Assembly: GCF_001314875.1 (NCBI RefSeq)
Contig: NZ_LJZS01000001.1
Location: 124,001-188,000, forward strand
Length of the DNA stretch: 64,000 bases
Reading direction: 5' to 3'
DNA from: Halomonas sp. HL-48
GTDB taxonomy: Bacteria; Pseudomonadota; Gammaproteobacteria; Pseudomonadales; Halomonadaceae
In this document: positions 1 to 12,023 of the stretch, one piece after another
Layout of the letters: every line of letters begins with the position of its first letter
How positions within the stretch are numbered: position 1 is the first letter of the stretch
Notes under the pieces: generated by a model
The model's database searches: none
Seen by the model: only the letters and a program-made list of their open reading frames with translations
What the model was told of the DNA's origin: nothing
Made by a program: the position numbers and the translations under genes

Positions 1-2268
1 GAACAGCACGGTATTGCGCGATGTTTTGTTGATCTGAATCCCGTACTTGTTCATCAGATATTCGTTCTTGAAGGTATCGCCATCGACCCCCGTATTGCCA
101 ATCGCGATGGTCACGCGGGAAGGGTCGACCACAAACTCATCGCGGGCCCAGGCTTCCTCCATTTTGTTCCAGCCGGTCACCGGGTCGTAATACGACTCGA
201 CACCCGACTCGCGATACGCCTCGGGCACCATGTCGCTGTTTTTCAGCACGCGGAAATACTTTTGCAGTAACGGGTGCGTATAGAGCTGCTCGCGGAGTGA
301 CAACGCCGTTTCAACCTGGGCGTGCACGAGTTCAAAGCCTTCCATTTCCGCCTGCATGCGCCCAACATCCAGCGACGCCACAATCTGGTAGTTGGGGGAG
401 GTCGAAGTATGGGTCATGTACGCCTCGTGGAAAGAGGCTTCCACTTTCTGACGAAAGTCCTGATCCCACACGTGAATCATTGAGCCCTGCCGCAACGAGG
501 TCAGGGTTTTGTGCGTTGAGTGCGTGGCATAGGTACGAATACGCACCTCATCAGGGTCGGGCATCAACCGCTGGTCGAGCCAGGTCGCATCGTCTTCCGG
601 GTCGAGCTTGTCGAACTCCTCCTTCCAGGCCGCGTATTCTTCCCGGTAGCTTGCGCTGCGATAACGATAGCGCAGGGTGCTTGCCGTGTTCATCGCGGTA
701 CGCGGCCGATACGTCGGGTTGAAACCAGCAAAGGCGAACCAGGCTTCATCCCAGAGAAATACCAGGTCCGGCTTGATCGCCAAGCATTCTTCCATGACGC
801 GGCGCACGTTATACACAATGCCGTCGAAGGTGCAGTTGGTCAGCAGCAGCATCTTCACCTTGTGCAGTTGGCCAGCGCGCTTATAGCTAAGCAGGGTTTT
901 CTTGATGTCACGCAGCGGCACAGCCCCGTACATGGAATAGTCATCGAGCGGATAAGAATCCAGATAACTCACATGGGCACCGGCCAGCACCATGCCGTAG
1001 TGATGCGATTTATGGCAGTCACGGTCAATGAGCACGATGTCGCGGGGTTTGACCAGGGCTTGCACCACGATCTTGTTGGCGGTGGAGGTGCCGTTGGTAA
1101 CAAAGAAACTGCGGCGCGCCCCAAATGCCCTGGCGGCATACTCTTGCGCCTTTTTAATCGGCCCGAAGGGTTGTAGCAGCGAATCGAGCCCACCGGACGT
1201 TGCCGACGTTTCTGCCAGAAAAATATTGATGCCGTAGAAATCGATCATGTGCCCCGCCCAATGGGAACGCGTCACCGACTTGCCCCTTGAAATGGGCATG
1301 GCGTGAAACACCCCCGTGGGTTTTTTACTGTATTCACGCAGGGCATCAAAGAACGGTGTTCGGTATCGGTTATCGATAGCGCGCAGGATGGTGTGATGCT
1401 GCTCAATATAATCCGTTTCGCGGTAGAAAATGCGATTGAAATACTGAATGTCCTGGCTCGCCGTGGCCTCCACATCACCGCTGGTGACCAAAAACTGGTC
1501 GATCTCCGGACGTAGCTCATGAATCATCGAGCTAAGCAAGATACTGCGCTCGGCTTCGGTCTGATGCTCCAGCTCTTTCTCCGATAGGCCTTCCAAATAG
1601 TTACGTAAGGCACTGAGGTTGTACTTTGACTTGTAGGGAAACTCGTAGCGGATCAGGCACGCCTGGATATTGGGATTGACCAAAACGGCAATCAGCGCAT
1701 CCTCGAAGCTTTTCACGGTCACTACGTCATAGACAAAGCGGTCCTCGGGCCGGCGCATATTGTGAAACGCCTCGCGCACCACCTCTTCTTCCTGGTTAGA
1801 GAGGTTGTCGACGATCAACAGCTCAAAATAAGGCTGTGCCGAACTGTTGGACGCGGGGTGTCCGCGGCGAAGCTGATTGAGCGCGTCGAGCGTTTCCATG
1901 TCCTCTGCGCCGGCATCCGTCTCGGAAAGATCGACATGGCGACGACGATAGGACTCGCTGATCAACGCTCTTACCAGGCGCTTTACGACTTTATCGAGCA
2001 GCGCGTACTCACCGCGATTGAAGAGCGTCCACAGATGGCGAAAATCTTCCTTGGATGGAAATGCATGATAGTCCTCGATGATTTCCAGGCGCGTCAGCTT
2101 GACGTCAATGGCCTTGACCAGGTTCTTGACGCGACCTTCATCCTCAAGGCGCGTCAGAATACCCAGGTCACGTTTAAGTGCATTCCAGGTATCGGCACGC
2201 AGTTGGGAGATTTTGTGATAAAAACCCAGGGCGGTGTAGGACGTTTCGGTAGGATTACTCTCTGACAT
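1..2268 (-). CDS. Orn/Lys/Arg decarboxylase family protein, 3' end outside the window
   Basis: PLP-dependent basic amino acid decarboxylase; 756 codons are visible and the C-terminus lies beyond base 1. The motif THSTHKTLTSLRQGS carries the Schiff-base lysine at about residue 587 (codon 510-508). Upstream are the fold-I motifs FFVTNGTSTANK and DRDCHKSHHYG, and GIQINKTSRNTVLF ends the visible part. A receiver-like wing domain sits near residues 150-230. In AdiA/CadA the lysine is near 370-390, so the N-terminus is about 200 residues longer than usual. I chose the ATG at 2268 because AAAGGA precedes it by about 11 bases; an ATG at 2280 is also in frame. It is the last visible gene of a four-gene operon, 61 bases after the C45 gene. 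Substrate unknown: ornithine, lysine, arginine or diaminobutyrate are all possible. Confidence 0.9.
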   Translation of the reverse strand, partial: MSESNPTETSYTALGFYHKISQLRADTWNALKRDLGILTRLEDEGRVKNLVKAIDVKLTRLEIIEDYHAFPSKEDFRHLWTLFNRGEYALLDKVVKRLVRALISESYRRRHVDLSETDAGAEDMETLDALNQLRRGHPASNSSAQPYFELLIVDNLSNQEEEVVREAFHNMRRPEDRFVYDVVTVKSFEDALIAVLVNPNIQACLIRYEFPYKSKYNLSALRNYLEGLSEKELEHQTEAERSILLSSMIHELRPEIDQFLVTSGDVEATASQDIQYFNRIFYRETDYIEQHHTILRAIDNRYRTPFFDALREYSKKPTGVFHAMPISRGKSVTRSHWAGHMIDFYGINIFLAETSATSGGLDSLLQPFGPIKKAQEYAARAFGARRSFFVTNGTSTANKIVVQALVKPRDIVLIDRDCHKSHHYGMVLAGAHVSYLDSYPLDDYSMYGAVPLRDIKKTLLSYKRAGQLHKVKMLLLTNCTFDGIVYNVRRVMEECLAIKPDLVFLWDEAWFAFAGFNPTYRPRTAMNTASTLRYRYRSASYREEYAAWKEEFDKLDPEDDATWLDQRLMPDPDEVRIRTYATHSTHKTLTSLRQGSMIHVWDQDFRQKVEASFHEAYMTHTSTSPNYQIVASLDVGRMQAEMEGFELVHAQVETALSLREQLYTHPLLQKYFRVLKNSDMVPEAYRESGVESYYDPVTGWNKMEEAWARDEFVVDPSRVTIAIGNTGVDGDTFKNEYLMNKYGIQINKTSRNTVLF

Positions 2269-2329
2269 GACGACACCCATCCTTTATCGGTATTTATCTA
2301 GAAACGCATTGACGTCGGCAACGAGTTAT

Positions 2330-3373
2330 TCAGCTGTATAACCCTCGTAAGCCATAACGCACAACTATTTGTTCTTCAGGAAATTTATCGAAACTCAAGT
2401 CCAGCACTCTGCCGGGCCAACGAAACTCCACGCGCCTTTCCTTGGGGTAATACACCGAGGTGTACACCGTACCAAGGCCGCGCTGGTAGTCGTGGCGAAA
2501 CAGAGGTGGGGCAGAAAAAGCCGCAATCAGACGCTCGTTGGTCGTCTCGTCATCATCCACCAGAATCGAAAGCTGACGCTCGCGAATCAACGTTTCCGAG
2601 GCCAGTGCATGAGCATACCACTCGATTTTCTTTTGATGATTGGTGGCCACCGCGACTCGCCGGATATTGGCACGACGGTCTGGCGCAATCATTGCCGTGA
2701 CATAGCGCCCGCTGGCATCCGTCACCGTAATGTTGTAAGCCATGTGCGTGGGCACACGCGCCAGGACGGCCGCCGCTTCGGGCACCGTATCGCAGAATTC
2801 AAGAATGTAACGCAGGATGATCGGCGCGCCAAAACCATCCCCTACCACCTGGCGCCCACCGAATGCCAGGGAAACAGCAAGCCCCGAATCGTTCATCCCA
2901 TCCAGCACGCCCCACAGGCAGTCTGACATGGCAATGACGCGGCGCTGATTCCAACGGGTGAAGAGGATCGTGCCCTCGCACAGTTCCGGTGGATAATCAT
3001 AGTTGCGTGCCAGTACGGTAGACTTAGGCCTTGCCAACACCGCCTGGGAACAACCGGTGATATAGGGCGGCGGCCGATACAGACTGAGTAGCCGCGACGC
3101 CAGATCGCCTCCACCGGTCAGTGCGCACAGCGTGCGATAGGTATCCAGCAATTCCGGCATGTACTGGCGTAAGGCGTTGTAGCACTCCAGATAGGAGGGC
3201 CGTTCACGTTCCCCTTCGGACAGGTACCAAGGTTCGTAAGCGGGCCAGTGGTAATCAAATAACGATTGCCACTTGGGGCCCGCCTGCTCTTCATGAACGG
3301 CGCGAAACGTCAATGCCTTATCCAGCTCTACCCCTGGTGCACGGCCAGCAGTCACATTTCCATCCATGCTCAC
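2330..3373 (-). CDS. C45-family autoproteolytic acyltransferase/hydrolase (isopenicillin N acyltransferase-like)
   Basis: A 347-residue Ntn-hydrolase of the acyl-CoA:6-aminopenicillanate acyltransferase family. Members self-cleave before a cysteine, which then acts as nucleophile to transfer or hydrolyse an acyl group on an amine. The likely nucleophile is C108 in PYITGCSQAVL, followed by the family pattern STVLARNYDYP; the downstream stretch VLDGMNDSGLAVSLAFGG is also typical. No signal peptide, so probably cytoplasmic. The start is a GTG at 3373 overlapping the stop of the ATP-grasp gene (GTGA); an ATG six bases downstream (3367) is equally possible. Translational coupling to the ligase suggests that it processes the ligase product. 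Real substrate unknown. Confidence 0.85.
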   Translation of the reverse strand: MSMDGNVTAGRAPGVELDKALTFRAVHEEQAGPKWQSLFDYHWPAYEPWYLSEGERERPSYLECYNALRQYMPELLDTYRTLCALTGGGDLASRLLSLYRPPPYITGCSQAVLARPKSTVLARNYDYPPELCEGTILFTRWNQRRVIAMSDCLWGVLDGMNDSGLAVSLAFGGRQVVGDGFGAPIILRYILEFCDTVPEAAAVLARVPTHMAYNITVTDASGRYVTAMIAPDRRANIRRVAVATNHQKKIEWYAHALASETLIRERQLSILVDDDETTNERLIAAFSAPPLFRHDYQRGLGTVYTSVYYPKERRVEFRWPGRVLDLSFDKFPEEQIVVRYGLRGLYS

Positions 3374-4971
3374 AGAATTTTGAAGTTACCACCGCCAATA
3401 GCATGGCTGACGGCAACTCCCTCCACCACGGGGTCTTGCAGCGCTTGGCCCGCATATTCACCGCGAATGGCGTCGATCCAGGCTTTGGCTCGCTCATTAA
3501 GACTGAAATCGTCGTTCATTAAGCGACCACGGGTGATCAGGATACCCAGATCGGCGCCTTCGTAGCGGAAATCCCCCGCACCGCTAATGCGCATAAAGAA
3601 GGCTTCCTGCTCATTTTCAGCGGCATGCGGATGGTAGCTGTAATGGTCATAATTGATGCTGCCGTCGTCGCTCATACGCCATACCCCCGTCTTGGGAGCC
3701 TGGGTCAGCAGGTCGACGCTCTCATCAGTGTGTTTGATCACCAACTGGCTCCAGCTGTCGACACTTTCAGGGTGCGCCCAGCGCTCGTTGATATCATCGA
3801 TATCAAGATCAAAGTCGAGGTCTGAAAACTCAAGCAAATGAAACAGAAACAGTGGAATATCAGAGTGGGCAAACGCCGCCACGTTGGTTAGTGAACTGGC
3901 GCCAGTGACGCGCGGATTGAGCTCACCAAGGTAGACTTCGTCGGTATCCATATCGATCAGGAAGTCGAGCTCAAAATAGCCACGATAGCCCTCATCGCGG
4001 AGCGCCTCACCGAATTGGAACGTATACTCACGCGCTTTGTCGCGCACTTCCTGGGTAAAGGCACCGGCAAACATCTCGTTGCCGCACCAGCCCCCCTTGT
4101 AAGGCGTCAATGTCTTGAACCCAACAAGCTCTGTCATTAAGGGACCCACTACGGTCCCGCAACGCGTGGCACAAGCTTCTATTGCCGAGCCGCGGCAATT
4201 GATACGCTTCATGATTTTGACTTCGGCCTCGGCCTCAATCTCTTCGGCGTGCTTGTAATAGTCCTCTTCACTGGCAATAAAGAAAGTGGTGTGGCCCGAG
4301 TCGCCAAACGCGGTCTGCACCACCAGGTCACTGCCGAGCTCCTTGCTTACTTCACAAAGCTCTTGATAACTGCCCACTTTCGCCAATACGTTGGGCACAC
4401 TTGGCACACCTGCTTTGTTGCCAATGCGTACCGTCTCGATCTTGTTATCCATACGTTGGCGTAACGTCGCCGGGGGAAAGGCAATTTTGAGCCCCAATTG
4501 CTTGCAGATATCTTCGGTGTGCTCATCAAACATCAAAAAAGCGGCGGTACCGGCGTTATCGCCTTCGGAACGCGACTGAAGAAAGTCGATTACTTCCTTG
4601 TGCTCAAGCAGGTAGTTATTGATGTCTTCAATGCCTTCAAAATCACGGGGGAATTTTTCTTTAGGCACAAAGACGTTACGCTGCTGGCCTTCGAAGCAGT
4701 CTATGTAGTTGATATGGCGAAAATTGCTCACCCAATCGCCAATCCCCAATAGGTTAAAGTTAGTCGCTGAAATAAAGTAAATCGGTTCCTTGTTATTGCG
4801 AAAGTGACGGCGAACATCGGCAATGGATGTGATCTTGCTCATGGTTGATGCTCCCTGATTGGCGGAAGGAGTGCGCGTGTTATCAGACGTCGTCTGTGAC
4901 GACGGGGCGCTGGCTTCATTGTTCTGCGCAGGGCTCAATAGCCGGCGCATCAGATCCAACAGAAATTTCAT
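3370..4971 (-). CDS. Biotin carboxylase-like ATP-grasp carboxylate-amine ligase
   Basis: A 533-residue ATP-grasp protein. The ATP-grasp core shows a lysine segment (MDNKIETVRIGNKAGVP), a glycine-rich loop (TAFGDSGHTTFF) and the metal-binding end GELNPRVTGASS with the usual E and N ligands. There is no biotinyl domain or carboxyltransferase partner, so a carboxylate-amine ligase fits better than a true biotin carboxylase. The ATG at 4971 has a strong AAAGGAGA 7 bases upstream. A second ATG at 4842 (reading MSKITS) has its own GGGAG 8 bases upstream. The stretch between them encodes a short basic N-terminus and a low-complexity Ser/Thr/Asn/Ala linker, so two forms may be made. It lies 31 bases after the nitrilase gene. 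It may join an amine to a carboxylate; substrates are not visible. Confidence 0.85.
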   Translation of the reverse strand: MKFLLDLMRRLLSPAQNNEASAPSSQTTSDNTRTPSANQGASTMSKITSIADVRRHFRNNKEPIYFISATNFNLLGIGDWVSNFRHINYIDCFEGQQRNVFVPKEKFPRDFEGIEDINNYLLEHKEVIDFLQSRSEGDNAGTAAFLMFDEHTEDICKQLGLKIAFPPATLRQRMDNKIETVRIGNKAGVPSVPNVLAKVGSYQELCEVSKELGSDLVVQTAFGDSGHTTFFIASEEDYYKHAEEIEAEAEVKIMKRINCRGSAIEACATRCGTVVGPLMTELVGFKTLTPYKGGWCGNEMFAGAFTQEVRDKAREYTFQFGEALRDEGYRGYFELDFLIDMDTDEVYLGELNPRVTGASSLTNVAAFAHSDIPLFLFHLLEFSDLDFDLDIDDINERWAHPESVDSWSQLVIKHTDESVDLLTQAPKTGVWRMSDDGSINYDHYSYHPHAAENEQEAFFMRISGAGDFRYEGADLGILITRGRLMNDDFSLNERAKAWIDAIRGEYAGQALQDPVVEGVAVSHAIGGGNFKIL

Positions 4972-5002
4972 CGATGGTCTCCTTTTGTGACCATTGCCGG
5001 GG

Positions 5003-5881
5003 TTAATGTTCCGGGGGCGTCTCAATATCAGCGCGTATGGGCTTGGCCAGCGGCCCTAGGGTGTCCAGAAAAGGTGAAGAACCGCCTTCATTTGCATACA
5101 GAGAAAAATTTACCTGCCGGTCGCGGAAGCTCTTGAGCGGCTGACCAAGGCCATGCAGGCCTCTCTCGCGTTCGCGCCTCACCCGGTTCAGATCGATCTC
5201 GATCGGCATCACCTGTTCGCCAGTGCCTGCCTGATGAATGACATCACCAGAGGGCCCCACCACAATCGAGCGGCCATTGCCCAAGGCACCCGCACCATTG
5301 ATATCAAAGAAGTAACATTGGTTAACCGCCGCGTTGGTGCGGGCGATAGACAGTTCGATATCTCGATCAACCGTATCGGTCATGGTGGGATGCAAAATGA
5401 CCTCGGCCCCCATGGAAGCCAACGTACGCGTCGTTTCGGGGAACCACATATCGTAGCAAATCGATATCCCAAAACGGCCGACATTGGGTACGTCAAACAC
5501 GACAAATTCGCTGCCGCTTTCTACACCAGCTTCAAAGGGGCGGAACGGGAACATTTTGCGGTAACGCGCAACCACCTGCCCTAAAGGGTTAATAACCACA
5601 GATGTGTTATAAATTTTCTCGCCGACTCGTTCAAACATGGAACCGGGGATCAGCCAGATGCGGTGTTGTAGCGCGAGTTGGCAAAACATCGCCTCGGTAT
5701 CACTGGGTAAGGGTTGCGCATAGTGAGGTGAAGCCCCCATGGGCATTAATTCACTGAACAGCACCATTTGAACCTGAGGGAAACGGGTCATAAGTGCATC
5801 AACGCGATGGCGCATGGCTTCGGTGTTATCGCCGTGGTGCAGGGCATGCATTTGTACACCAGCAATGGTGAAATAAGACAT
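5003..5881 (-). CDS. Carbon-nitrogen hydrolase (nitrilase superfamily amidase)
   Basis: A 292-residue nitrilase-superfamily enzyme with the complete Glu-Lys-Cys triad: E44 (LFSELMP), K109 (YRKMFPFRPF) and C142 (ISICYDMWFPET). Members hydrolyse linear amides, N-carbamoyl groups or ureido groups on small amines. Family signatures such as GAEVILHPT and NGRSIVVGP are present. There is no signal peptide. It is the first gene of the minus-strand operon that continues with the ATP-grasp ligase, the C45 enzyme and the decarboxylase. By context it could be an N-carbamoylputrescine amidase-like step or an amidase for a conjugate made by the ligase. The exact branch of the superfamily cannot be decided by eye. 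Confidence 0.9.
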   Translation of the reverse strand: MSYFTIAGVQMHALHHGDNTEAMRHRVDALMTRFPQVQMVLFSELMPMGASPHYAQPLPSDTEAMFCQLALQHRIWLIPGSMFERVGEKIYNTSVVINPLGQVVARYRKMFPFRPFEAGVESGSEFVVFDVPNVGRFGISICYDMWFPETTRTLASMGAEVILHPTMTDTVDRDIELSIARTNAAVNQCYFFDINGAGALGNGRSIVVGPSGDVIHQAGTGEQVMPIEIDLNRVRRERERGLHGLGQPLKSFRDRQVNFSLYANEGGSSPFLDTLGPLAKPIRADIETPPEH

Positions 5882-6098: not shown

Positions 6099-6566
6099 TT
6101 AAACGTCGACATCAATGCCAATGGGAATGCTTTTGACCGTTTTAGTCACAATATAAGTGAAATAGCGCTCGATACCTGCATCCGAGACCAGCCACTTGTC
6201 CATCAAACGCTGGTAACTGTCGATGGTGCGGGCTTCAAACTTGACCAGGTAATCCACGCCGCCGCCCACCGCCACGCACTCGGTCACCTCCGGCGTCTGC
6301 ATGACCAGCGCTTCAAAGCGCGCAAAGCTGTCGGCGTTGTGCTGCTTGAGCTCGATCTGCACCCAGACGGGATTGCGCGGCACCAGTACGTCGGTGTCGA
6401 TGCGGGCACTGTAACCTTGAATGACACCGGCATTTTCCAGGCGCTTTACCCGCTCCCAACAGGGGCTGACCGAGAGGTTGATGGCGTCGGCCAGCTTCGA
6501 CTTGGTGATCCGCCCGTCGCGGGACAGGATGTCGAGAATTTTCAGGTCGTAACGGTCAAGTTTCAT
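6099..6566 (-). CDS. doeX: Lrp/AsnC-family regulator DoeX, ectoine degradation
   Basis: A 155-residue Lrp/AsnC regulator. The N-terminal winged HTH (LDRYDLKILDILSRDGRITKS, then KLADAINLSVSPCWERVKRLE) is followed by an alpha-beta ligand domain with VAVGGGVDYLVKF. In Halomonas elongata doeX sits directly after doeA and doeB and encodes the regulator of ectoine catabolism. The order is the same here, 11 bases after doeB. I prefer the ATG at 6566; a GTG immediately upstream would add one residue. No strong terminator is visible in the 217 bases between it and the nitrilase gene. Confidence 0.92.
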   Translation of the reverse strand: MKLDRYDLKILDILSRDGRITKSKLADAINLSVSPCWERVKRLENAGVIQGYSARIDTDVLVPRNPVWVQIELKQHNADSFARFEALVMQTPEVTECVAVGGGVDYLVKFEARTIDSYQRLMDKWLVSDAGIERYFTYIVTKTVKSIPIGIDVDV

Positions 6567-6577
6567 CACGGCAGGGG

Positions 6578-7609
6578 TTACGCCTCCAGACGCTCAACCA
6601 CATCGGCAATCACCGCCAGGGTGTCGCCCATGTTGATTAACGACGGCGCGCGACGGGCCATCAGAATGCCGTCGCGTTCGGCGTGATACGCCACCGGCGC
6701 GGTGCCGCTTCGGGTCATGTCGTACACGTAGGCGATGGTTTGGCCTTTTTTAACTTCATCCCCAAGCGCGACCAACAGCTCTAGCACGCCCGAGTGCTGG
6801 CTCTGCACGTAGCAGCTGGCGTCAGGCATATCGAGGTACATCTGCCCGCCTGCAGGCATTTTCACTTCGCCTTCTATCAGGCCGTAGTGGATCAGGAAAT
6901 TACGCACGCCGCGCTCGGTAATCGCGATGCTCTCAGGCGTCGAGGTGCCGCCGCCGCCAAGCTCGGTGGCGACGAATACTTTGCCCTGGCGCTCGCAGGC
7001 GGTGTCGAAGAGTTTTTCGGCATCCAGCTCGAACATTACCATGGCGTAGGGCGCGCCAAAGGCTTTGGCGCCTTCCAGCGCGGCCTGCTGCTGGGCTTTG
7101 TCGTCAAGCACGTGGGAGGCGCCAAACGGCAGGATATCCAGCGTACGGCCACCAGAATGCAGGTCGAGCACGACGTCGCTCATCGGCACCAGCACGCGGG
7201 TGAAGTAGTCGGCAATCTGGGAGGTGACGCTGCCGTTAGGGTCGCCGGGAAAGCTGCGGTTGAGGTTGCCCTTGTCCATCGGCGAGGTGCGCTTGCCGGC
7301 CATCACCGCCGGGGTATTCATGCACGGCACGATAATCACCCGCCCCGTCACATCCTCTGCCTTGAGGGTTGAAGACAGCTTGAGCAGTGAGGTGATGCCT
7401 TCGTATTCATCGCCGTGGTTGCCGCCGGTCAAAAGCGCCGTGGGGCCGTCGCCGTTCTTGACTACGGTGACGGGAATCATCACCGCGCCCCAAGCGGACT
7501 CGTCGGTGGAAATCGGCAGCTTCAAGAAGCCGTGCTGAACGCCGTCGGCATCAAAGTCCACGGTGGCCGAAATCGGGCTGGGCCGCGGTTGGCTGGAGGG
7601 TATCGTCAT
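6578..7609 (-). CDS. doeB: N-alpha-acetyl-L-2,4-diaminobutyrate deacetylase DoeB
   Basis: A 343-residue zinc deacetylase of the AstE/AspA (M14-like) group. It removes acetate from N-alpha-acetyl-diaminobutyrate, the product of ectoine ring opening, to give L-2,4-diaminobutyrate. The zinc ligands are visible as H65 and E68 in GGNHGDEYEG and H151 in LDLHSGGR; a catalytic-Glu segment ATELGGGG follows. The identification rests on adjacency to doeA (12 bases) and doeX (11 bases) in the order known from H. elongata. The C-terminal barrel domain ends in a hydrophilic stretch, and no export signal is present. Confidence 0.93.
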   Translation of the reverse strand: MTIPSSQPRPSPISATVDFDADGVQHGFLKLPISTDESAWGAVMIPVTVVKNGDGPTALLTGGNHGDEYEGITSLLKLSSTLKAEDVTGRVIIVPCMNTPAVMAGKRTSPMDKGNLNRSFPGDPNGSVTSQIADYFTRVLVPMSDVVLDLHSGGRTLDILPFGASHVLDDKAQQQAALEGAKAFGAPYAMVMFELDAEKLFDTACERQGKVFVATELGGGGTSTPESIAITERGVRNFLIHYGLIEGEVKMPAGGQMYLDMPDASCYVQSQHSGVLELLVALGDEVKKGQTIAYVYDMTRSGTAPVAYHAERDGILMARRAPSLINMGDTLAVIADVVERLEA

Positions 7610-7621
7610 GGTGTCGTCCTT

Positions 7622-8836
7622 TTACTTAACAAACAGCTGGCGCGGAAAATTGGCCAGCGTTTCGCAGCCGTCTTCGGTGATCAGAATACTTTCGGTAATT
7701 TCCAGGCCCCAGTCTTCAACCCACAGGCCGGGCATAAAGTGAAACGTCATGCCGGGCTGCAGGATGGTGTCGTCCGAGGGGCGCAGGCTCATGGTGCGCT
7801 CGCCCCAGTCCGGCGGGTAGGAAAGACCGATCGAATAGCCACAGCGGGCACCGCCGCGGTCAAAGCCGTATTTATCCATGGCCGCGCCCAGCGCCATGGC
7901 GATATCGGCAGTACAGTTGCCGGGCTTGGCCACCGCCAGGCCGTTGTCGATGCCTTCGAGTAGCGCTGACTCCGCCCGGATAAAATCCGCCGGCGGCCTG
8001 CCCAGAAACACCGTCCGCGACATCGGCGCGTGGTAGCGCTTGAACACCCCGGCAATCTCGAAAAACGTGCCCTCGCCTTCGCGAAACGGCGTATCGTCCC
8101 AGGTCAGATGGGGAGCTGCGGCGTCTTTGCCGGTGGGCAGCATGGGCACGATCGCCGGATAGTCACCGCCAAACACCTTGCCATTTTCATCCACAAAGCC
8201 TTCGATGCCGACGCGGTAGATCTCCGATACCAGCTTGCTCTTGGGCAGGCCTGGCTCGATGACCTCCAGAATACGCGTGTGCATGCCTTCCACGATCTTG
8301 GCGGCCGTGCGCATATAGCTGATTTCCTGCGGCGACTTGATCGCCCGGCACCAGTTTACCAGGGCATTGGCATCCATGAAGCGCGCATGGGGCAGCTCGC
8401 GCAGCAGACTCTGGTAGGCCTTGGCGGAAAAGTAGTAGTTATCCATTTCCATGCCCACCACGCCCAGGTGCCAGCCGCGGTCGGGCATGATCGACTGGGC
8501 CAGGTATTCCATCGGGTGCATATCCGGATTCTGAACGTAATAATCCGGGTAATAGGTGATGTTTTCCGGATCGATCCAGCAGGTGCGCAGCGCGCCGTTG
8601 GCGTCCATGCGCCGGCCAAACCAGACAGGCTCGCCCTCAAGGCCCACCAGCACGCACTGATGAACGTAAAACGACCAGCCGTCGTAACCGGTCAGCCACG
8701 CCATGTTAGAGGGGTCACTGACGATCAATACGTCAATGCCGCGACCGGCCATTTCAGCACGCACCTTCCAGAGGCGGTTTGCATACTCTTCACGAGTGAA
8801 AGGCAGGGACACCTGAGTCATCGGGCAACTCGCCAT
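7622..8836 (-). CDS. doeA: Ectoine hydrolase DoeA
   Basis: A 404-residue enzyme of the M24 (creatinase/Xaa-Pro peptidase) fold that opens the ectoine ring to N-acetyl-diaminobutyrate, the first step of ectoine degradation. The N-terminal creatinase-like domain contains DVLIVSDPSNMAWLTGYDGWS and the C-terminal pita-bread domain contains FFEIAGVFKRYHAPMSRTV and WVEDWGLEITESILIT. It is the first gene of doeABX. A second in-frame ATG at 8821, beginning MTQVSLPF, would shorten it by five residues and may be the true start; neither has a convincing ribosome binding site. The later enzymes of the pathway (doeC, doeD) are not in the window. Confidence 0.94.
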   Translation of the reverse strand: MASCPMTQVSLPFTREEYANRLWKVRAEMAGRGIDVLIVSDPSNMAWLTGYDGWSFYVHQCVLVGLEGEPVWFGRRMDANGALRTCWIDPENITYYPDYYVQNPDMHPMEYLAQSIMPDRGWHLGVVGMEMDNYYFSAKAYQSLLRELPHARFMDANALVNWCRAIKSPQEISYMRTAAKIVEGMHTRILEVIEPGLPKSKLVSEIYRVGIEGFVDENGKVFGGDYPAIVPMLPTGKDAAAPHLTWDDTPFREGEGTFFEIAGVFKRYHAPMSRTVFLGRPPADFIRAESALLEGIDNGLAVAKPGNCTADIAMALGAAMDKYGFDRGGARCGYSIGLSYPPDWGERTMSLRPSDDTILQPGMTFHFMPGLWVEDWGLEITESILITEDGCETLANFPRQLFVK

Positions 8837-10107: not shown

Positions 10108-10677
10108 ATGACGTCGTCCCTCCATGATTATCAACCCCACGATGCGCTGCTGGTCGTCGATATGCAAAACGACTTCTGCGAGGGCGGAGCCCTAGCGATT
10201 GACGGCGGCAGCGCCTTGGTGCCGGGCATCAATGCCGAAATCGAAGCGGCGCTCGCCGCCGGGGCGACCGTCGTAGCCTCGCGCGACTGGCATCCGGTGG
10301 ATCATGTCAGCTTCAGCCACCAGGGCGGCCCCTGGCCGGTTCACTGCGTGCAGGATACGCCGGGCGCCGCCTTTCACCCGGATCTCTTACTCCCCGATGA
10401 GGTCATCCGCGTGAGCAAAGCCACAGCCTTTGATGCCGATGCCTATTCGGCTTTCGATGGCACGGGTCTCGGTGGCTACCTGCGCGAACGCGATATCCAA
10501 CGCGTCGTGGTGTGCGGCCTGGCGCTCGACGTATGCGTCCACGCCACGGTACTTGAAGCCTGCCGGGAAGGCTTTACCACACTGTTTTTGGAAACCTTAT
10601 CCGCCGCGGCCGACCCTGACGCCATCGCGCGCTGCCGTCGTGAGATGCAACATGCCGGGGCCGAGGTACGTAAATGA
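10108..10677 (+). CDS. pncA: Nicotinamidase
   Basis: A 189-residue isochorismatase-fold hydrolase converting nicotinamide to nicotinate in NAD salvage. The triad is D18 (VVDMQNDFCEGG), K104 (VSKATAFDADAYSAF) and C143 (GLALDVCVHAT). Metal ligands include D60 and H62 in SRDWHPVDHVSF. The ribosome binding site GAAGGAGA stands upstream of the ATG. Its stop overlaps the start of pncB by four bases (ATGA), so the two consecutive salvage enzymes are translationally coupled. Confidence 0.95.
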   Translation: MTSSLHDYQPHDALLVVDMQNDFCEGGALAIDGGSALVPGINAEIEAALAAGATVVASRDWHPVDHVSFSHQGGPWPVHCVQDTPGAAFHPDLLLPDEVIRVSKATAFDADAYSAFDGTGLGGYLRERDIQRVVVCGLALDVCVHATVLEACREGFTTLFLETLSAAADPDAIARCRREMQHAGAEVRK

Positions 10678-12023
10678 ATGACCCGTTAACGCTGAGCGTG
10701 GCAGACGACGAGCTGGCACTGTTGACCGACCTCTACCAGCTGACCATGATCCAGGCCTACTGGAAGGAGGGAATGCACCAGACGCCCGCGACGTTTAGTC
10801 TGTTTTTCCGCCAGCTACCCCCGACGCGCCGGTTCATCCTTGCCTGCGGCCAGCAGCACGCGGCGGCCACGCTCAGTCGGTTGCATTTCAACGCCGATGC
10901 GATTGAAAAACTCGCCTCGACCGGGCGCTTTGACGACGATTTTCTGGCCTGGCTCGCGAACTGGCAATTTTCCGGGGATATCTGGGCGGTGCCCGAAGGC
11001 ACTGTGCTCTTTCCCCATCAGCCGCTGCTTGAAGTGGACGCCCCGATCGCCGAGGCCCAACTGCTCGAAAGCCTGATCATGAACCTTGTCCAGCTGGAAA
11101 CGGTGCTGGCGTCCAAGGCGGCACGCATCGTGTGGGCGGCGGGCGACCGCCCGGTGGTGGATTTTGGCATGCGCCGCGTGCACGGCATTGATGCGGCAGT
11201 GCGAGGGGTGCGCGCTTACAAGACGGCGGGCATCAGCGGCACCAGCAATGTGCTTGGCGGGCTACGTCATGATCTGCCGCTCAGCGGCACCATGGCGCAC
11301 AGCTATATTCTTGCTCACGATGACGAACCCTCGGCCTTCCGCGCGTTTGCCCGTCACTACCCCGACACCACCTTACTGGTCGATACCTACGACACCCTGC
11401 AAGGCGTTCAGCACGTAATTGACGTGCTGCGTGACATGCCCAGCCTGACAGTCGGTGCCATTCGCCTCGACTCGGGCGACCTGGGCGCGCTCGCCAAAGG
11501 CGCGCGCAGGTTACTGGACGACGCCGGCCACCAGTCGATCAGGATCATTGCCAGTAGCGGCCTGGATGAGCACAGCATCGCCAAGCTGATCGCCCAGGCA
11601 GCACCGATCGACGCCTTTGGCGTTGGCACCCAGATGGGCGTTTCGGCGGATGCCCCGGTGATTGACCTGTCCTACAAGCTCGTTGAATACGCCGGCACGC
11701 CGCGGGCCAAGCACGCCCCCGGTAAAACCAGCCTGCCGACTCGCAAGCAAATCTTCCGGCGGCAGGATACCCAAGGACGCTACCTTGGCGATATCATTGC
11801 CCGTCGCGATGAAACGGGTATCGAAGGCGAGGCGTTACTCGTGCCGGTGGTGACCGGCGGCGTCATCAACACCGCGGCGATGGCCGACACCCAGCACGCC
11901 AGCGCCCGGGTCGCCGATGCCCTGCCCCGCTTTCCAGCCTCCGTGACGGCGCTGGCCGACGGAGAAAGCGATTACCCGGTGGAACTGAGTGACGCCCTGG
12001 CGCATCTATCATCCACGGTATAA
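10674..12023 (+). CDS. pncB: Nicotinate phosphoribosyltransferase
   Basis: A 449-residue type II phosphoribosyltransferase that makes nicotinate mononucleotide from nicotinate and PRPP, the next step after PncA. Typical segments are LLTDLYQLTMIQAYW at the N-terminus, FGMRRVHGIDAAVRGVRAY, GISGTSNVLGG, GTMAHSYILAH and AIRLDSGDLGALAKGARR with the phosphate site in ASSGLDE. The ATG overlaps the pncA stop. A short hairpin follows the stop codon. Confidence 0.95.
   Translation: MNDPLTLSVADDELALLTDLYQLTMIQAYWKEGMHQTPATFSLFFRQLPPTRRFILACGQQHAAATLSRLHFNADAIEKLASTGRFDDDFLAWLANWQFSGDIWAVPEGTVLFPHQPLLEVDAPIAEAQLLESLIMNLVQLETVLASKAARIVWAAGDRPVVDFGMRRVHGIDAAVRGVRAYKTAGISGTSNVLGGLRHDLPLSGTMAHSYILAHDDEPSAFRAFARHYPDTTLLVDTYDTLQGVQHVIDVLRDMPSLTVGAIRLDSGDLGALAKGARRLLDDAGHQSIRIIASSGLDEHSIAKLIAQAAPIDAFGVGTQMGVSADAPVIDLSYKLVEYAGTPRAKHAPGKTSLPTRKQIFRRQDTQGRYLGDIIARRDETGIEGEALLVPVVTGGVINTAAMADTQHASARVADALPRFPASVTALADGESDYPVELSDALAHLSSTV

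Follow-up and report, generated by a model that had tools for sequence, protein, structure and literature searches.

A conserved four-gene module of ATP-grasp ligase, C45-family enzyme, OKR-fold decarboxylase and nitrilase-fold enzyme in Halomonas sp. HL-48, with a possible role in glutamate and GABA metabolism

The side chain of butirosin is made by the ATP-grasp ligase BtrJ, the pyridoxal phosphate (PLP) decarboxylase BtrK and the acyltransferase BtrH, and is deprotected by BtrG. In this work, we describe a set of four genes that resembles this system in its kinds of enzyme. It lies in a stretch of 64,000 nucleotides of Halomonas sp. HL-48 (RefSeq assembly GCF_001314875.1, contig NZ_LJZS01000001.1, positions 124,001 to 188,000 of the forward strand; hereafter, the window) and encodes a nitrilase-superfamily enzyme, an ATP-grasp ligase, a C45-family enzyme and a large OKR-fold decarboxylase. 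The four genes are a conserved module, grouped far beyond chance and, judged by their sequences, the four enzymes seem suited to the assembly, decarboxylation and cleavage of small molecules with amide links.

The likeness to butirosin biosynthesis lies in four kinds of step, namely the ligation of a gamma-glutamyl group, a decarboxylation that leaves a gamma-aminobutyryl group, the transfer of the acyl group and the removal of an amide. However, the acyl group of butirosin is held on a carrier protein, whereas the module, compared by description rather than by sequence, has no carrier protein among its four genes; it also has an OKR-fold decarboxylase, an N-terminal nucleophile (Ntn) acyltransferase and a nitrilase-fold or amidase-signature hydrolase. 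In the gamma-glutamylputrescine (Puu) pathway, similarly, an amide is formed with ATP and later hydrolyzed, and gamma-aminobutyrate (GABA) is carried off by a transaminase and then a semialdehyde dehydrogenase; by description, the module differs in having no oxidase and in the families of its ligase and hydrolase. The decarboxylases LdcI and AdiA share with the module enzyme the OKR fold and the PLP lysine in SxHK, but the latter is about 930 amino acids long with a long N-terminal part, has Asn at the position of E526 of LdcI, and is closest among solved structures to a protein that is presumably Rv2531c. The predicted model of the C45 enzyme (predicted local distance difference test, pLDDT, 94) is nearest to another C45 enzyme, acyl-CoA:isopenicillin N acyltransferase, which it resembles in fold (TM-score 0.67 over the model) and in the Gly-Cys site, although the identity in this structural match is 14%. 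Finally, the genes of the arginine-to-GABA route through AruI (5-guanidino-2-oxopentanoate decarboxylase) are found beside or around ligase and C45 genes at some of the loci described below, whereas neither an ATP-grasp ligase nor a C45 enzyme is known from that route.

The module is a combination of known enzyme families that we did not find described in the part of the literature that was searched, mostly by annotation words. The preliminary description of the window, made from the sequence alone, had likewise been able to name no pathway for this set. In the annotated plasmid records that we opened, the ligase is called a biotin carboxylase.

Gene set and conservation of the module

The module consists of the following genes.

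5003..5881, minus strand: nitrilase-superfamily (CN hydrolase) enzyme of 292 amino acids, a probable amidase (PF00795, 110 bits)
3370..4971, minus strand: ATP-grasp ligase of 533 amino acids from the ATG, named 'biotin carboxylase' by NF005096 (763 bits; cut-off, 684)
2330..3373, minus strand: C45-family Ntn acyltransferase/amidohydrolase of 347 amino acids, nucleophile Cys108 (NF040521, 189 bits; cut-off, 85; PF03417)
1..2280, minus strand: large OKR-fold PLP decarboxylase, of which only the 5' part is in the window (PF01276, 246 bits)

The preliminary description had placed these genes head to tail on one strand with gaps of 31, -4 and 61 bases, and the map of open reading frames agrees. The nitrilase-fold gene stops at 5003, leaving 31 bases to the ligase ATG at 4971; the first codon of the C45 gene shares 4 bases with the end of the ligase gene (stop at 3370); and the gap between the C45 and decarboxylase genes is 61 bases if the latter starts at 2268 and 49 bases if it starts at 2280, both positions being candidates. 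With such spacing, there is no gene, and hence no carrier-protein gene, between them. The ATG at 4971, which is preceded by the Shine-Dalgarno sequence AAAGGAG, is most likely the start of the ligase, while the longest reading frame begins with a TTG at 5025 and has 551 amino acids. The decarboxylase is cut by the window edge, and its whole reading frame has 929 amino acids (L002:9491-12280). The ligase and the decarboxylase have a single match each in this genome. The catalytic residues listed in the preliminary description (E44/K109/C142 of the nitrilase-fold enzyme, C108 of the C45 enzyme, ELNP of the ligase and K587 of the decarboxylase) are all present and are conserved in the family alignments; note that K587 is counted from the start at 2268, and that the same lysine is K591 from the start at 2280.

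The co-occurrence of the four families was counted in a single sample of 299 genomes, drawn evenly from the phylum. The ligase is present in nine of these, all of which are among the 13 genomes with the decarboxylase and the 12 genomes with the C45 enzyme (hypergeometric probabilities, which ignore relatedness, of 1.5e-14 and 4.7e-15, respectively); the nitrilase-fold enzyme is present in nine genomes and shares seven with the ligase (3.2e-11, calculated in the same way). Within the family to which the window belongs, 28 of 101 genomes have the ligase, and a scan of named genomes gave at least 564 ligase relatives.

We examined 89 loci (L002, L012-L019 and L020-L099), the last 80 of which are the best of these relatives and are biased to close ones. 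Since L012 is the same place as L023, and L013 the same as L061, 87 of the loci are distinct. The ligase and C45 genes are together at all 89 loci, the decarboxylase gene is found at 79 and the nitrilase-fold gene at 78, and two gene orders prevail (49 and 17 loci). Of the 11 loci that lack the nitrilase-fold gene, six start at a contig edge. The possibility, raised in the preliminary description, that the four genes are rarely together was also examined, and all four turn out to be present at 70 of the 89 loci. The hosts include Gamma-, Alpha- and Betaproteobacteria together with metagenome-assembled genomes of Planctomycetota, Myxococcota and Gemmatimonadota, and the ligase is further found in halophiles, in Candidatus Accumulibacter and on rhizobial plasmids. 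In total, 32 plasmid records carry the ligase, 26 of which are from Rhizobium or Sinorhizobium.

Conserved residues and likely chemistry of the four enzymes

The OKR-fold enzyme has the PLP lysine in SxHK in all 75 module decarboxylases by pattern and in 22 of 22 in the alignment. At the position of E526 of LdcI (numbering taken from the alignment), where arginine decarboxylase also has Glu, the window decarboxylase has Asn. This Asn is found in 74 of 75 sequences by the pattern NKTSRN, the remaining one (L091) having N and R in the alignment, and in all 22 aligned sequences. Thus, the acidic residue expected of the Lys, Orn and Arg OKR decarboxylases for the distal cation is not found in the module decarboxylases. 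The best solved relative, which matches over most of the length, is 9n0n (833 bits), and we take this to be Rv2531c. An excerpt of a review (PMC12910592) gives the same name through its 9N0O entry, and calls the activity of Rv2531c unclarified.

A sister clade of large OKR decarboxylases (44-45% identical) is found in four genomes of two genera that have no ligase, and a gene of the Asp-Al_Ex exchanger family (PF06826) is near the decarboxylase gene in all four loci (L139, L140, L141 and L142). Such a neighbor is also a feature of the pairs of decarboxylase and exchanger that handle acidic amino acids. From these features, we infer that the substrate of the module decarboxylase is an acidic amino acid or an amide. 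Apart from the module, the sister-clade enzyme and its neighbor may be a new decarboxylase-exchanger pair.

The ligase passes the 'biotin carboxylase' model NF005096 with the score given above. In a predicted structure of it (pLDDT 80), the best fold matches are biotin carboxylase and PurK, with a TM-score of about 0.5. The carboxylases have a bicarbonate/biotin motif, E-x-N-x-R-I-Q-V-E-H, which appears as EVNPRIQVEH in pyruvate carboxylase and as EMNTRIQVEH in 2-oxoglutarate carboxylase. In place of this motif, the ligase has ELNPRVTGAS. We therefore rejected biotin carboxylase as its function, and the replacement suggests a carboxylate-amine ligase. Residues E368, N370, P371 and R372 are invariant in 20 of 20 aligned relatives, and a pattern made of GE[LI]NPR, any two residues and then G-A matches 82 of the 89 ligase reading frames, leaving seven unmatched.

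Many ligases of Halomonadaceae and Marinobacter, including that of the window (L002:13370-14971), combine a good Shine-Dalgarno sequence with a basic, amphipathic-looking N-terminal stretch. Because this stretch is mainly a trait of these two groups and was not seen in most other lineages, we rejected a membrane anchor as a feature of the ligase family.

In the C45 enzyme, the nucleophile C108 is invariant in 32 of 32 aligned sequences and the preceding G107 is nearly so. We use the count from the alignment here, since a narrow sequence pattern matched 23 of 86 sequences. After isopenicillin N acyltransferase, the next fold matches are bile salt hydrolases, N-acylethanolamine acid amidase and acid ceramidase. 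When the sequence of the C45 enzyme was compared with those of solved structures, there was no credible match, the best E-value being 0.025.

The nitrilase-fold enzyme has the triad E44/K109/C142, which all 21 relatives examined share without change. An amidase-signature gene follows the ligase and C45 genes at L065, L066, L067 and L169, where the locus has no nitrilase-fold gene; the first three of these form one clade on the ligase tree, and the amidase of L066 is identified by BLAST only. At L171 and L174, the nitrilase-fold gene is also missing and a more distant amidase (30%) is located downstream. Because loci that lack the nitrilase-fold gene often have an amidase-signature gene nearby, the nitrilase-fold enzyme probably hydrolyzes an amide. 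For both the C45 and the nitrilase-fold enzymes, then, amide chemistry is what we infer.

Neighboring genes and a possible role in GABA and glutamate metabolism

Outside Halomonadaceae, there are 47 loci, of which 46 are distinct. A GabT-like gene is found by BLAST near ten of these 46, whereas the density of GabT genes in 15 module genomes would lead one to expect about 0.2. In six loci (L018, L072, L080, L087, L096 and L099), the gene scores over the cut-off of TIGR00700 (GabT); in L084, L090 and L091, it is under the cut-off (482-499 of 506.65 bits), and in L075, it is a partial gene that has a BLAST basis only. In G083 (L167), another GabT gene that passes the cut-off is located at a distance of about 6 kb from the module. 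On the ligase tree, which holds 54 of the 89 ligases, the GabT label requires five changes, and at least three of these are forced by well-supported branches; the 27 rows without a label are outside this count. A succinate-semialdehyde dehydrogenase gene over the cut-off is found in L018, L068 and L087, not counting L056 and L069, where the GabD labels by BLAST are weak (32 and 38%).

In Thiofilum (L071), Labrys (L097), Roseateles (L173) and Shinella (L175), the ligase and C45 genes also adjoin, or sit within, a set of genes for the conversion of arginine to GABA. This set comprises genes for an amino acid permease, an agmatinase-family protein, 5-guanidino-2-oxopentanoate decarboxylase, an aldehyde dehydrogenase, a D-amino acid dehydrogenase and a racemase, the last two of which were recognized by eye in L071 and L097. 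Such enzymes lead from arginine through 4-guanidinobutyrate to GABA. In the rhizobial plasmid loci L170, L171 and L174, a gene of the Glu/Leu/Phe/Val dehydrogenase family lies 1.3 to 5 kb from the decarboxylase gene, and in L171 and L174, an oligopeptide-type ATP-binding cassette (ABC) gene set accompanies the downstream amidase. Roseobacter ponti (L172) has gabT and a glutamate-synthase-family gene. In addition, a tripartite ATP-independent periplasmic (TRAP) transporter pair (DctM and NMT1_3), presumably of the TAXI type, recurs by BLAST at L016, L068, L070, L072, L076 and L087.

The explanation that we tentatively prefer is a glutamate/GABA-centered amide module, carried on chromosomes and plasmids, that would form and cleave amides in which the acid is a gamma-amino acid and most probably GABA from glutamate. 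In this scheme, the substrate of the OKR-fold enzyme would be glutamate or a gamma-glutamyl amide, which would be decarboxylated to GABA or a GABA amide, and the ligase would use ATP to couple the gamma-amino (or gamma-glutamyl) acid to an amine or amino acid. The C45 enzyme, through a Cys freed by autoproteolysis, would then transfer or remove that acyl group, and the nitrilase-fold amidase, or the amidase-signature enzyme instead, would hydrolyze an amide, so that GABA could leave through GabT and GabD. The order of the four steps is our proposal, while the families, the conserved catalytic residues, the co-occurrence and the contexts were observed directly. If this explanation is true, the name 'biotin carboxylase' is wrong for the ligase, and one could test for a new branch of the metabolism of glutamate, arginine and GABA, nodule bacteria included.

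Several points weigh against this explanation. A neighborhood alone does not show chemistry, and at 24 of the 47 loci, some of which are cut by contig ends, no tracked neighbor is present within 6 kb. No GabT was found in three of the 15 module genomes. Among 11 genomes checked for the decarboxylase (those of the ten loci without it and G339), two hold a large OKR enzyme elsewhere and nine, including four of Aquitalea and that of Thiofilum, hold none, so decarboxylation is not essential. We had expected a PF00282 decarboxylase to stand in for the OKR enzyme in module genomes that lack the latter, but none of the six such genomes tested has one, as against 11 of the 18 others. As regards the active site, we take E526 of LdcI to bind the side-chain amine, which the literature that we looked at does not confirm. 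For a lysine decarboxylase, an excerpt of one paper assigns substrate binding to E387 and E391. Nor is the Arg of NKTSRN universal, being Ile in Rv2531c and Pro in S. meliloti. At L050, a nitrilase-fold gene and a distant amidase-family gene are both nearby. Finally, agmatinase-family genes over the cut-off of TIGR01230 are found near L071, L074 and L097, and L074, where the decarboxylase is present, is also compatible with an arginine-agmatine route.

A special form of the glutamate/GABA explanation would be a carrier-free counterpart of the butirosin route. By analogy, the ligase would put the gamma-carboxyl of glutamate on a small amine, the OKR enzyme would decarboxylate the glutamyl group while it is bound, which would give a gamma-aminobutyryl amide, the C45 enzyme would pass this group on, and the amidase would free GABA. 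We give this form a rather low probability; it would be a widespread way to make GABA or to store it as an amide.

The preliminary description was right to treat the four genes as one unit, for which our searches gave no characterized pathway, but the polyamine route that it suggested is disfavored, and we regard it as unlikely. In that route, the decarboxylase would make agmatine, putrescine or cadaverine, the ligase would protect this product by acylation with a gamma-glutamyl or carbamoyl group, and the two amidohydrolases would deprotect it. The family name OKR and the similarity of the decarboxylase to arginine and lysine decarboxylases fit such a route, as does the agmatinase-family gene near L074, whereas the Asn in place of the Glu of LdcI and arginine decarboxylase does not. 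The recurrent neighbors that can be named point to GABA and glutamate, and no polyamine synthase or gamma-glutamylputrescine gene is among the identified recurrent neighbor families, although most small clusters are unidentified and no search by name was made. As to carbamoyl protection, N-carbamoylputrescine amidase (AguB, TIGR03381) is indeed the closest NCBIfam model of the nitrilase-fold enzyme, but the match is weak, with 75.7 bits lying far below the cut-off of 410.25. A gamma-glutamyl product, or another small one with an amide bond, may be made.

It is less probable still that the ligase and the C45 enzyme build an amide-linked metabolite, either a small natural product or an amino-lipid, that is exported or placed in the membrane. 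This possibility draws on the fold of the C45 enzyme, which is like those of isopenicillin N acyltransferase, N-acylethanolamine acid amidase and acid ceramidase, on the N-terminal stretch of many Halomonadaceae and Marinobacter ligases, and on genes of the ribosomally synthesized and post-translationally modified peptide (RiPP) type, or for acyl carrier protein (ACP)/adenylation functions, near some plasmid copies. However, the module has no carrier protein of its own, the N-terminal stretch was not seen in most other lineages as described above, and the module is widely spread with catabolic neighbors (GabT and GabD) and, at part of the loci, with importer-type genes.

The module within the ectoine-degradation cluster of Halomonadaceae

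In the window, the following genes are located upstream of the module.

6099..6569, minus strand: Lrp/AsnC regulator (PF13412 and PF01037) in the doeX position, placed as in H. elongata
6578..7609, minus strand: doeB, N2-acetyl-diaminobutanoate deacetylase (TIGR02994, over cut-off)
7622..8836, minus strand: doeA, ectoine hydrolase (TIGR02993, over cut-off)

Downstream, beyond the window, the place of doeC is taken by a dehydrogenase like succinate-semialdehyde dehydrogenase (611.8 bits; cut-off of TIGR01780, 646) and that of doeD by an aminotransferase-family protein (NF005684, over cut-off). With doe genes on both sides, a context absent from the preliminary description, the four genes sit inside the ectoine-degradation cluster. 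The same holds for 41 of the 42 Halomonadaceae loci, including L024, a short contig with the Lrp and doeC genes beside the module; the exception is L047, which has a weak DoeA match. On the ligase tree, the doe label requires a single change.

The module is probably its own transcription unit within this cluster. The interval between the regulator and nitrilase-fold genes is 217 bases, and that between the decarboxylase gene and doeC contains one terminator-like hairpin by scan, though there are no more such sites than in shuffled sequences, and another by eye. A promoter scan of L002:9000-16700 gave two sites, both on the plus strand and fewer than in the shuffles.

According to an excerpt of the H. 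elongata study (PMC3187862), that strain degrades ectoine with doeA, doeB, doeC and doeD, and doeX is directly followed by doeC, so that the module is an insertion when compared with that strain's cluster. A pair of DoeA and DoeB was found in none of the flanks of the 47 loci outside Halomonadaceae (only the flanks, and not the whole genomes, were searched for doe genes). The module is therefore not needed wherever doe works. The flanking doe genes and the single label change speak for a role in ectoine metabolism, in which the four enzymes would act on diaminobutyrate or N-acetyl-diaminobutyrate, and the hairpin before doeC speaks against it; such a role is very improbable and was rejected as the main explanation.

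About 1.7 kb past the doeD-like gene, a luxS-like reading frame was recognized by eye (L002:4064-4531). In H. elongata, LuxS and autoinducer-2 (AI-2) repress doeCD, according to an excerpt of a 2026 paper (PMC13337758).

Some further observations concern genes near individual copies of the module. At L018, a gene for an Imm49-type immunity protein (L018:8352-9209) lies between the GabD and C45 genes. On a plasmid of a lentil Rhizobium (L170:11506-12793), the C45 gene is cut short beside an IS30-type transposase gene, and on a plasmid of a clover-nodule Rhizobium (L171:662-4496), a Nif11-type RiPP precursor gene and two radical SAM maturation genes are found near the module. Genes like those for nicotinamidase and nicotinate phosphoribosyltransferase were seen by eye near the module both in the window (10108-12023) and at L073 (L073:13624-15843), perhaps by chance.

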